Assembly (NCBI RefSeq): GCF_022808915.1
Contig: NZ_JAKZFS010000005.1
Coordinates: forward strand, 186,001-250,000
Direction of reading: 5' to 3'
Length of the DNA stretch: 64,000 nucleotides
Source: Fundidesulfovibrio terrae
GTDB lineage: Bacteria > Desulfobacterota > Desulfovibrionia > Desulfovibrionales > Desulfovibrionaceae
In this document: positions 7,485-58,275 of the stretch, one piece after another
Position numbering within the stretch: position 1 is the stretch's first letter
Layout: every line of letters starts with the position of its first letter
Program-made: the position numbers and the translations under genes
The notes under the pieces: generated by a model
Databases searched by the model: none
What the model saw: the letters and a program-made list of their open reading frames with translations, nothing else
Told to the model about the DNA's origin: nothing

Positions 7485-8108
7485 ATGAGCGTGAAAACAC
7501 TGGATTGCCTGGGCATGACCTGCCCCCAGCCCCTGATGGCCTGCCGGGCGTGCCTCGAGACCGAAGCGCCCGAGGCCCTCACGGTGCTGGTCGACGACGA
7601 GGCCGCCCTGGAGAACGTCACCCGTTTCCTCACGGCCAGCGGCTACCAGCCTTCCTCCGCCAAGGACGGACGCACCTGGATCATCAGCGCCGCGCGCGGC
7701 CCCGAGGCGGGCAAGGCCCCCGCACCCGCCGTGGAGGACTTCCCCTGCCCCGTCCCCAGACCCGGCGAACGGACGCGCGTCGTGGTGTTTCTCACCGCCG
7801 AGACCATCGGGCGCGGCGACGACGGCCTCGGCGGCAAGCTCATGGGTAATTTCCTGAAGACCTTGCCCGAACTCGGCCAGGACCTCTGGCGCGTGGTCAT
7901 GGTCAACGGCGCGGTGAAGCTGGCGGCGCTGGACAGCCCGCATCTGGATGCTCTCAAGGTACTGGAAGCCCAGGGCGTGGACATCCTGGTGTGCGGTACC
8001 TGTCTGGAGTTCTTCGGCCTCATGGACAAGCGCGCCGTGGGCCAGACCACCAACATGCTGGACGTGGTCACAAGTCTGCAACTGGCCACCAAGGTGATCG
8101 ACCTGTAG
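7485..8108 (+). CDS. yedF: YedF-type sulfurtransferase-like selenium metabolism protein
   Basis: A 207-residue two-domain protein. Residues 1-70 are a TusA/SirA-like domain with LDCLGMTCPQP, the CPxP motif around the reactive cysteine. Residues from about 98 to the end are a DsrE/DsrF-like domain containing a GTCLEFF motif. The family is named from comparative genomics because it accompanies selenium-use genes such as selD; its biochemical role is not settled. The start is supported by AAAGGA nine bases before the ATG. Its presence is relevant to the candidate selenoprotein at 25752-25970, which appears to have a related TusA-like fold. Confidence 0.88.
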   Translation: MSVKTLDCLGMTCPQPLMACRACLETEAPEALTVLVDDEAALENVTRFLTASGYQPSSAKDGRTWIISAARGPEAGKAPAPAVEDFPCPVPRPGERTRVVVFLTAETIGRGDDGLGGKLMGNFLKTLPELGQDLWRVVMVNGAVKLAALDSPHLDALKVLEAQGVDILVCGTCLEFFGLMDKRAVGQTTNMLDVVTSLQLATKVIDL

Positions 8109-25724: not shown

Positions 25725-25755
25725 GTGAAAGGCGGGGCGCTGCCCCGCCTTTCAC
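25725..25755. terminator. Shared palindrome between convergent genes
   Basis: GTGAAAGGCGGGGC (25725-25738) and GCCCCGCCTTTCAC (25742-25755) pair perfectly around a GCT loop. It lies between the LOG gene and the small selenoprotein candidate and overlaps the latter's stop codon. There is no separate T tract, but the arms end in AAA/TTT, so weak bidirectional termination is plausible. Confidence 0.5.
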
Positions 25756-25970
25756 CTCACAAAGCTGAACCGCACCGCCCCGTCGATCTCTTCCCGCTCA
25801 AGCCGCCACTGTGAGAACGTGTGCGCCAGTTCCTCGAAAATCGAGGCCTGGCCGGCGTTGGCCCACACGTCCACGCGCGAGGCCCCGACGAACCGGAGGT
25901 GCCACCCGACCTCCGCGCCCACGCCTCAGCACTTGCCGCGAACGTCCAGCACGATCCGCTCACCATCCAT
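25752..25970 (-). CDS. Candidate small selenoprotein with TusA-like fold (in-frame TGA = Sec)
   Basis: The frame from ATG 25968-25970 to TGA 25752-25754 encodes 72 residues if the TGA at 25926-25928 (codon 15) is read as selenocysteine. AAGGAG lies ten bases before the ATG, which overlaps the aat stop. Before the TGA it reads MDGERIVLDVRGKC, and after it GVGAEVGWHLRF...SRVDVW, then FEELAHTFSQWRLER and AVRFSFVR. Third codon positions after the TGA are almost all G or C, as in the neighbours. LDVRGxC is like the start of TusA/SirA domains (compare LDCLGMTC of YedF at 7485-8108), and the strand-helix-strand order and length also fit. The Cys-Sec-Gly triad would be a redox or sulfur/selenium-transfer centre. 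A SECIS-like hairpin follows (25894-25915). Alternatives are a nonsense-mutated pseudogene or a base error. The function is unknown. Confidence 0.7.
25894..25915 (-). promoter_or_regulatory. Putative bacterial SECIS hairpin
   Basis: On the minus strand CGGAGGT (25915-25909) pairs with ACCTCCG (25900-25894), a seven-base-pair stem closing an eight-base loop CGGGTGGC. The loop starts 18 bases after the in-frame TGA and has G as its second base. This agrees with the general bacterial SECIS model, in which SelB binds a short hairpin inside the coding region directly downstream of UGA with a G near the 5' side of the apical loop. The element was found by eye; its thermodynamic rank against random GC-rich sequence was not computed. 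Confidence 0.5.
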
Positions 25971-26691
25971 GATGCAGATGCTCCTTGCGTTTGTCCGGGT
26001 CGCTCCACCACGCGGGCGTGAGCCAGCCGTCCGGTTCCTCATTCATGGCCGACGCGGCCTCCACCATGCGCGTGAACAGCTTTCGGGGAATCTCGCGGGC
26101 GCCGAAGCGGACCACATGCGGTGTGGCCTGTTGGCAATCCATAAAGTGATACTTTAATTCTTTGAGCAGCCAGACCAGATGGACGAAGGCCACCTTGGAG
26201 GCCTGCGGAACCTCGTGGAACATGGATTCACCAAAAAACGCCCGCCCCACGGACACGCCGTAGATGGCCCCCACGAGGCGTCCGTCCAGGCGGCACTCCA
26301 CGCTGTGGGCATGCCCGGCCTGGTGCAGGCGCACATAGGCCCGGATCATGTCGTCGGTGATCCAGGTGCCCGCCTGTCCAGGGCGGTCCATGACGGCGCA
26401 GGCGCTGATCACGGCCTGGAAGTCGGTGTCCACGCTCACCCGGAAGGGATGGTTGCGCAGGTAGCGCCGGAAGCGGGAATCCAGGACGAGGTCCTTGGGG
26501 AAAAGCACAGGCCTGGGGTCGGGCGACCACCAGAGGATGGGATGCTCGTCGTTGTACCAGGGGAAGATGCCGTGGCTGTATGCTTCCATCAGCCGGGCCA
26601 CGCTCAGGTCGCCGCCCACGGCCAGAAGCCCCCCGGGATCGGCTGATTCCGGGTCGGGGAAGCGGATGGCGGTGGTCAGAAGCGATATCAC
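25960..26691 (-). CDS. aat: Leucyl/phenylalanyl-tRNA-protein transferase
   Basis: A 243-residue aminoacyl transferase of the bacterial N-degron pathway; it adds Leu or Phe to proteins with N-terminal Arg or Lys so that ClpS/ClpAP can degrade them. Family motifs: FPDPESADPGGLLAVGGDLS, YSHGIFPWYN, WWSPDPRPVL, SVECRLDGRLVGAIYGVSVG, FFGESMFH and FMDCQQATPHVVRFGA. The start is GTG at 26689-26691, five bases after the stop of the upstream gene; no clear ribosome binding site is visible, so coupling to upstream translation is likely. clpA and clpS, common neighbours elsewhere, are absent here. Confidence 0.93.
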   Translation of the reverse strand: MISLLTTAIRFPDPESADPGGLLAVGGDLSVARLMEAYSHGIFPWYNDEHPILWWSPDPRPVLFPKDLVLDSRFRRYLRNHPFRVSVDTDFQAVISACAVMDRPGQAGTWITDDMIRAYVRLHQAGHAHSVECRLDGRLVGAIYGVSVGRAFFGESMFHEVPQASKVAFVHLVWLLKELKYHFMDCQQATPHVVRFGAREIPRKLFTRMVEAASAMNEEPDGWLTPAWWSDPDKRKEHLHHGW

Positions 26692-26696
26692 GGGCG

Positions 26697-27413
26697 CTAT
26701 TTGACCGGTTTGGCCTCCAGCACCTGAAGGACGTTGCCGGGCTTGACCACGCCGGTCACTTGCAGGCGCGTGCCCACATGGTCCTTGGGGTGGAAGCAAA
26801 GATCGTCGATGCAGCCGTAGAAGGTGCCATCGTCGGCCTTGAAGCGCACGCAATAGTAGAAGGGCTCGTCCTGGCCGCCCCAGCTGGAGCTGGAGCGCGA
26901 GCGCACGCAGCCCTCATAGCGGCCGGTGATCGTCACCTGCTGCTCGGCGGGGTCGTAGCCCTCGAAGGAGACGCGTGACAGGTAGGGAACGCTGGAGGCC
27001 GAGCCGGCGTAGACCTCCGAGACGCTCAAGCGCACTGCGGAGCCGCGCCCGGTGAGCGTGATGGTCTGGGGCTTGTCGGTGTCCTTGAGGGTGACGGTCT
27101 GGGTGCCGCCGTCGTCGAAGGCCAGCACGGCCGTGCGGATGCGCCCGTATTGCCTGAAGGACCCGTGCGCGGCCCAGCCGTTGACCACCGTCATGCGCGT
27201 GACCACCACATGCTTGGAGAAGCCGAATTCGATCCACTGCCCCACGGCTACGCCGGTGGTGTTGGCCGGGTCCACCAGCCGCGACAGGTTGCCGCCGGGT
27301 TCGGTCTGGGCCGAAGCGTCGATCTGGATGGCCAGGGGGCTGGAGACGGCCGGTTTCCCGGCCCAGGCCGGACAGGCGGCTGCGAGGGCGAGGAGCAGTA
27401 TGAGAAGGCGCAT
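26697..27413 (-). CDS. Exported protein with discoidin-like domain
   Basis: A 238-residue protein with a signal peptide (MRLLILLLALAAACPAWA). Residues about 30-150 look like a discoidin or F5/8 type C-like carbohydrate-binding domain of the kind found in NAD-glycohydrolase translocation proteins: WIEFGFSKHVVVTRMTVVNGW, then SFRQYGRIRTAVLAFDDG. The last 80 residues have an OB-like pattern with Cys pairs (GCVR...YYCVRF...GCIDDLCF) that may form disulfides in the periplasm. The ligand is unknown. It lies 15 bases after motB and five bases before aat in one apparent operon. Confidence 0.7.
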   Translation of the reverse strand: MRLLILLLALAAACPAWAGKPAVSSPLAIQIDASAQTEPGGNLSRLVDPANTTGVAVGQWIEFGFSKHVVVTRMTVVNGWAAHGSFRQYGRIRTAVLAFDDGGTQTVTLKDTDKPQTITLTGRGSAVRLSVSEVYAGSASSVPYLSRVSFEGYDPAEQQVTITGRYEGCVRSRSSSSWGGQDEPFYYCVRFKADDGTFYGCIDDLCFHPKDHVGTRLQVTGVVKPGNVLQVLEAKPVK

Positions 27414-46818: not shown

Positions 46819-46896
46819 CGGGATGTAGCTCAGCATGGCTAGAGCGCTGCGTTCGGGACGCAGAGGCCGGAGGTTCGAATCCTCTCATCCCGACCA
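46819..46896 (+). tRNA. tRNA-Pro, anticodon CGG
   Basis: The acceptor stem CGGGATG pairs with CATCCCG. The D arm is GCTCAGCATGGCTAGAGC, the anticodon stem-loop is CTGCG-TTCGGGA-CGCAG with anticodon CGG, and the T arm contains GGTTCGAATCC. The 3' CCA is encoded. All arms pair well. No integrase gene lies beside it, although such tRNA ends are frequent integration sites. Confidence 0.95.
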
Positions 46897-58069: not shown

Positions 58070-58128
58070 GGCGGCCTCATGAATGTTGGCGGAAACGCGG
58101 CGGGGAAGGAATACGGGGAAGCAGCGGG

Positions 58129-58213
58129 CATCCGAATTCCCTCCGGCGGTTCGAACCGCGTCAGGTTCCATGGGTGTGATCTCAGCCCCGGCCCCAGGCC
58201 GGCGCACCCCAAT
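58129..58213 (-). promoter_or_regulatory. TPP riboswitch (THI element) of the thiM operon
   Basis: On the minus strand GGGGTGC is followed by the two conserved boxes CTGAGAT and GAACCTGA, then CCGCCGGAGGGAATTCGGAT, the characteristic THI box order and spacing. It lies about 60 bases upstream of thiM, where thiamine pyrophosphate would switch off expression, most likely by sequestering the GAGG ribosome binding site or by termination. Confidence 0.93.
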
Positions 58214-58275
58214 CGGATGACCAAATCATAACCGGATGCCCGCGCACCTGCAAGGCGCGGACTAAGCCCTTTCCC

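Follow-up and report, generated by a model that had tools for sequence, protein, structure and literature searches.

We have found that a short open reading frame on the minus strand of a 64,000-nucleotide stretch of the Fundidesulfovibrio terrae genome (the whole of the DNA analysed here, referred to as the window) is, judging from its sequence, very probably a real selenoprotein gene, and we are highly confident that its product is a selenoprotein of TusA-like fold with selenocysteine (Sec) at the position of the catalytic cysteine. The selenoprotein reading, first raised in an earlier note on this DNA, is strongly supported because the in-frame TGA is conserved, a SECIS-like hairpin follows it, the Sec machinery is present and paralogues carry Cys at the Sec column. 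A 2026 table of 119 selenoprotein families (Table 1, PMC13188914) has no TusA/SirA entry, neither TusA nor SirA is mentioned in the main text of that paper, and the gene would therefore add a selenoprotein family on a fold absent from the table. No TusA- or SirA-type selenoprotein is named in the accessible portions of PMC12013277, PMC9312934, PMC5322559, PMC2432076, PMC4607533, PMC1794560 and PMC8318568, the relevant portion of PMC1794560 listing eight selenoproteins for D. vulgaris and seven for D. desulfuricans without this family among them, and we found no printed description of such a protein in the open-access literature. HgcA, SaoL, SaoC, MbdU and KCU-star (PMC13188914) likewise have a Cys directly before Sec but are other families, and their NCBIfam models, where these exist, miss the three members that we scanned.

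The gene and its conservation

The gene spans 25752..25970 on the minus strand, from an ATG at 25970 to a TGA stop at 25754-25752, and with the internal TGA translated as U it encodes 72 residues, MDGERIVLDVRGKC-U-GVGAEVGWHLRFVGASRVDVWANAGQASIFEELAHTFSQWRLEREEIDGAVRFSFVR, that is 14 codons, the TGA, 57 codons and the stop. Sec is residue 15; its codon (25926..25928, minus strand) is preceded by TGC (Cys14) and followed by GGC (Gly16). A Shine-Dalgarno-like AAGGAG lies ten bases upstream of the ATG (25981..25986, minus strand), and similar 4-mers are found upstream of the start in 91/107 family homologues. The readthrough frame described in the earlier note is confirmed; the note had not named the strand, which is minus, and a plus-strand reading of the same coordinates was rejected as giving no sensible protein. 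The G/C-rich third positions that it reported after the TGA correspond to a third-position GC of 0.89. The palindrome that it placed near the gene end is a perfect 14-nt inverted repeat with a 3-nt loop (25725..25755, no strand assigned; arms 25725-25738 and 25742-25755), which covers the stop codon and is probably a terminator between converging genes. The open reading frame upstream (25960..26853, minus strand; these are mechanical limits and the true start may be further in), which we take to be aat, encoding leucyl/phenylalanyl-tRNA-protein transferase, ends at 25960 and so overlaps the start of the gene by 11 nt. Elsewhere the window contains a TPP riboswitch (58120-58221, minus strand) and a tRNA (46819-46893, plus strand).

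Searching with the TGA written as X, as the earlier note had proposed, gave homologues in 107 of the 199 genomes sampled from the window's family (25 of 44 genera), far more than chance would give, four weak second rows (E 0.0015-0.009, two to five stops each) being excluded, and in 107/107 of these copies TGA stands at the identical column with TGC or TGT before it. An order-wide search with a 54-member profile (A3) gave matches in 158/297 genomes, including three other families, some of the matches being weak (e.g. G060 and G083) and probably the Cys paralogue described below. TGA is present in 35/35 further loci that were fetched, 32 of them from the three other families; of the 35 other-family genomes with a match, G586, G598 and G630 were left out, as were family genomes new in the A3 search, and G108, G057 and G141, missed by the first family search, were included. 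Hence all 142/142 fetched copies, from four families, have TGA at the same column, and the expectation that homologues would show either TGA or TGC/TGT there held for TGA; a Cys codon occurs in none of the 142 and is found only in a separate paralogue clade. According to the deep-Sep paper, in the portion available, Cys homologues now seem to exist for all known selenoproteins, and its method may overlook any that lack them; the only Cys relatives we see for this gene are a distant paralogue clade. Although the gene occurs in four families of the order, none of the family models matched it. The residue before Sec is Cys in 141/142 copies, the exception being L214 (G057), where Gly stands instead; the vicinal Cys is therefore not an absolute requirement.

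Conservation extends to both sides of the TGA: among the 107 family copies, D (107/107), R (96/107) and C (107/107) are conserved before it and G (104), E (104), L (107) and R (103) after it. Beyond the hairpin the gene evolves as a protein, with a median dN/dS of 0.224 and values below 0.5 in 193/217 pairs (highest 1.29; 258 pairs were compared, 217 had a usable dS, and the pairs are not independent). A phylum search with the first profile matched 6/395 genomes, all in the window's own family, a result that understates the range because the better profile A3 reached other families of the order; G618 is among the carriers (L197). A scan of viral contigs found no relative, and a scan of genome contigs with a single pattern in which Cys codons replaced the TGA gave one match, L046, which proved spurious. 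We note two divergent copies, L078 (G147) and L138 (G197), the latter of which has lost several conserved residues, keeps the TGA and hairpin, and is perhaps decaying or specialised.

The presence of selABCD, which the earlier note had named as a check, was borne out: the genome encodes selA, selB, tRNA-Sec (anticodon TCA) and selD, and selD and two fdhA (formate dehydrogenase) genes themselves contain TGA. Within the family the gene occurs in 99/167 SelB-positive genomes versus 8/32 SelB-negative ones (Fisher p 4e-4, uncorrected for kinship), and the 8/107 carriers without a SelB match above the cut-off are all assemblies of at least 180 contigs or at most 84% complete. At one locus (L102, on C6 of G031) some 1.1 kb separates the gene from selB.

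Predicted fold and relation to TusA and SirA

An AlphaFold model built from 30 sequences (pLDDT 90.5) is arranged strand-helix-strand-helix-strand-strand, with strand 1 preceding the TGA. The best structural match in the PDB is the SirA-like 3hz7 (TM 0.75/0.73, with a weak E of 0.0025), with TusA 3lvj at rank 6 (TM 0.69/0.65); Foldseek returned no match with E < 0.001, and fragments of methyltransferases score nearly as well as SirA and TusA, whose matches span almost the whole length of both proteins. Likeness to TusA/SirA, with its beta-alpha-beta-alpha-beta-beta arrangement, is supported by the predicted fold only, and it is in this form that the resemblance suggested in the earlier note survives. 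None of 30 members scanned is matched by the Pfam TusA model (PF01206), matches with E up to 1 being allowed, and comparison with a TusA profile (from which five of 29 loci without the expected motif were dropped and a thirtieth, L167, was left out) gave a probability of 45 and E 2.2e-4 over 70 columns in the expected register, against a probability of 67 for the best of 40 column-shuffled controls. With no match to the Pfam model, we regard the protein as a relative in the TusA fold and not as a proven TusA member. Pfam, NCBIfam and PDB sequence searches found no relative, NCBIfam models matching none of three members scanned; such matches as Pfam gave, UL148 and DUF6578 among them, were weak and scattered and were set aside.

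The alignment pairs U with the Cys of TusA and Gly with its Pro, the additional Cys coming one residue earlier. In LDxxGxxCP the Cys lies six residues past the Asp, and that same residue is Sec here; the proposal of Cys-Sec in place of Cys-Pro was thus off by one in register. The CPxP motif is absent, its place being taken by UGVG, with U-G in 104/107 family copies. The protein therefore shares with TusA/SirA (PF01206; 3hz7, 3lvj) its size, its predicted fold, an LDxxGxx-C/U start and a reactive residue before helix 1, but it has Sec where they have Cys and Gly where they have Pro, carries an extra Cys one position earlier, and lacks both CPxP and a Pfam match. The YedF homologue that the earlier note pointed out in the same window by its LDCLGMTC (7485..8108, plus strand; LDCLGMTCPQP) likewise has a TusA-type domain in a selenium-using organism, but it combines TusA and DsrE domains in 207 residues, has Cys-Pro and contains no in-frame stop. 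The C-terminal DsrE-like domain of YedF (TIGR03527) is missing from the 72-residue protein, which is one small domain, and the features of a DsrE-like selenoprotein (PF02635, UxxC) are absent, there being no DsrE match in 30 members and the motif being CUGVG.

Gene neighbourhood and possible function

At 59/107 family loci the gene stands between upstream nitroreductase and metallo-hydrolase genes and downstream genes for a flavoprotein and a protein that we take, by label only, to be ComF-like (neighbour domains were assigned from one representative each). Taken singly, the hydrolase is upstream at 73 of the 107 loci and the flavoprotein downstream in the same direction at 79, both being present at 72, and among 34 scored further loci the hydrolase was found at 33 and the flavoprotein at 34. 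A GDT1-type gene lies upstream in sixteen loci. The hydrolase resembles glyoxalase II and, less so, persulfide dioxygenase, both below curated cut-offs. Four Cys are present in 115/115 aligned flavoproteins; 99/115 fit the pattern CX2CX2CX5-7C, which the accessible part of PMC3164229 gives as the motif of Isf (iron-sulfur flavoprotein), and the others differ in the last gap. The seven loci of the window's own genus have aat upstream and not the hydrolase and flavoprotein genes.

We infer a Cys-Sec redox or sulfur-relay protein. Conservation and genome content suggest that SelB inserts Sec by means of the SECIS-like hairpin just past the UGA; in the predicted structure and alignment Sec takes the place of TusA's sulfur-carrying Cys, just before helix 1, where the vicinal Cys-Sec pair could form a selenenylsulfide. 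The following mechanism appears to us the most likely one, though we advance it tentatively. Sec would accept sulfane sulfur donated by a persulfide, and resolution by the vicinal Cys would release sulfide or hand the sulfur to a further acceptor; re-reduction of the pair would fall to the Isf-like flavoprotein, whose gene usually follows directly downstream. The aat context in the own genus and the Gly of L214 weaken this proposal. It is conceivable, if rather doubtful, that an obligately Sec-dependent TusA-fold relay for sulfur (or selenium), the Isf-like flavoprotein and the glyoxalase-II-like hydrolase together form an undescribed sulfane-sulfur/selenide pathway in this order of anaerobes, with Sec in every orthologue examined, and that homology-based finders, which depend on close Cys homologues, overlooked it for that reason. 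A Sec-containing TusA-like protein makes the need of a sulfur-relay fold for selenium directly testable.

Two other functions would leave the selenoprotein itself as described. The protein might be a glutaredoxin-like thiol-disulfide reductant in which the Cys-Sec pair does no more than pass electrons from the flavoprotein on to disulfides or peroxides. Mammalian thioredoxin reductase has vicinal Cys-Sec as its redox motif, the Cys is nearly invariant in the present family, and the flavoprotein and nitroreductase-like neighbours would suit such a role; the model, however, is not thioredoxin-like, no thioredoxin is among the 50 structure matches listed, and the vicinal Cys is not conserved in the Cys paralogues, and we accordingly hold this function to be questionable. 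We think it unlikely that the protein instead carries selenium or a metal, for example as a supplier of selenide to SelD or as a binder of mercury or arsenic. Such a role is suggested by the CU motifs of mercury-related HgcA and SaoL and of metal-binding MbdU (PMC13188914), by the proximity to selB in G031, and by the link between selenium use and the TusA+DsrE protein YedF that is drawn in the accessible part of PMC5322559, but the recurrent neighbours we see are hydrolase and flavoprotein genes.

The SECIS-like hairpin and the cysteine paralogues

The TGA and the SECIS-like hairpin together occupy 25884..25928 on the minus strand, as located by cmsearch and pair counts, with a stem GGAGGU/ACCUCC in the window copy. 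In the family the hairpin begins 11-12 nt after the TGA and has a seven-pair stem and a six-nt loop (GGAGRUA-GGUUGG-UAYCUCC); the innermost pair fails in 25/93 distinct sequences, including the window copy, where it is C-C and does not form. Against the window the covariance model scores 55.5 bits (E 4.2e-14; next best E 0.87) at this site, the window copy being one of its 93 training sequences. Across those sequences 95.4% of 651 cells are paired versus 89.4% after shuffling, double changes number 44 versus 7.4, four pairs have changed on both sides, and sliding the partners breaks the pairing. The pairing also couples two codons: the first base of a Val/Ile codon covaries with the silent third base of a Tyr/His codon (A with T 39/39, G with C 51/68; Fisher p 5e-16, uncorrected for kinship), and GTA or ATA is used at the Val/Ile position in 73/107 copies, whereas the neighbour genes use them for 9% of their Val and 16% of their Ile codons. 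Bacterial SECIS elements are described, in the accessible part of PMC1088965, as hairpins that directly follow the TGA and carry a G in a small apical loop, and a G is found in the apical loop here in 140/141 copies (L214 was left out of the loop counts and of the tree below).

The covariance model matches 31/32 loci from the other families, and in each of them the match begins precisely with the TGA (E 2e-14 to 0.26), although it also scores coding sequence, so that these matches are not independent of protein homology; three are weak (E 0.1-0.26), and for L190 no match was listed. Of the 32, 15 form at least six of the seven pairs. In the remaining 17, all of one family, the register is shifted by two with the loop in place (e.g. 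GACGCC-GGUU-GGCGUC), and this register, recognised post hoc from those same sequences, gives 6/6 pairs in 8 loci, 5 in 8 and 4 in 1.

Could the TGA be a true stop, with the downstream part translated by restart or by selenium-free readthrough? An open reading frame with a GTG start at 25922 is present in the window, ATG, GTG or TTG occurs within five codons past the TGA in 72/107 copies, and in 37/107 a start codon lies four codons past it with the GAGG of TGAGG seven bases upstream, a possible ribosome site. Such a start codon is, however, missing in 35/107, and GGAG, AGGA and GAGG are found in 0/107 within the stretch formed by the TGA and the ten bases preceding it. On either side of the TGA, moreover, the residues are conserved as one domain whose first strand precedes it in the model, and the apical G is kept nearly throughout. 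We therefore consider translation by restart or selenium-free readthrough very improbable.

Selenocysteine insertion is also the reading to which the paralogues point. A family with the motif DLRxVxCGLVPA and Cys at the Sec column occurs in 58/199 family genomes (stop-free rows, E < 1e-4; any match was found in 64 genomes, some of these being the Sec gene), and hhalign aligns the Sec and Cys profiles with a probability of 97.6, against 5.2 for the best of 40 shuffles. These unnamed paralogues (L047-L066) resemble the Sec protein in length and, by model, in topology (pLDDT 76.6; the top three PDB matches are SirA-like and TusA twice), and one member scanned has no Pfam or NCBIfam match. They differ in having Cys, a GFGxGG motif, no conserved vicinal Cys and no 7-bp hairpin. 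An uninterrupted stem of at least 7 bp is formed by 104/107 Sec copies versus 0/20 Cys paralogues; in the latter the same stretch folds no better than shuffled sequence (mean z -0.43 against -2.53), and a 6-bp stem arises by chance in 7/20. In a tree built from 141 Sec rows and 20 Cys rows (82 columns) the two form separate, fully supported groups, with long branches flagged, and within the Sec clade we see no change from Sec to Cys. That the gene is a pseudogene or a sequencing error, in which a former Cys codon like the TGC/TGT of the paralogues became TGA, is extremely unlikely given the TGA in every copy from four families, the low dN/dS after it and this separation of the groups. By eye, hairpins are also seen in fdhA and selD of the same genome.
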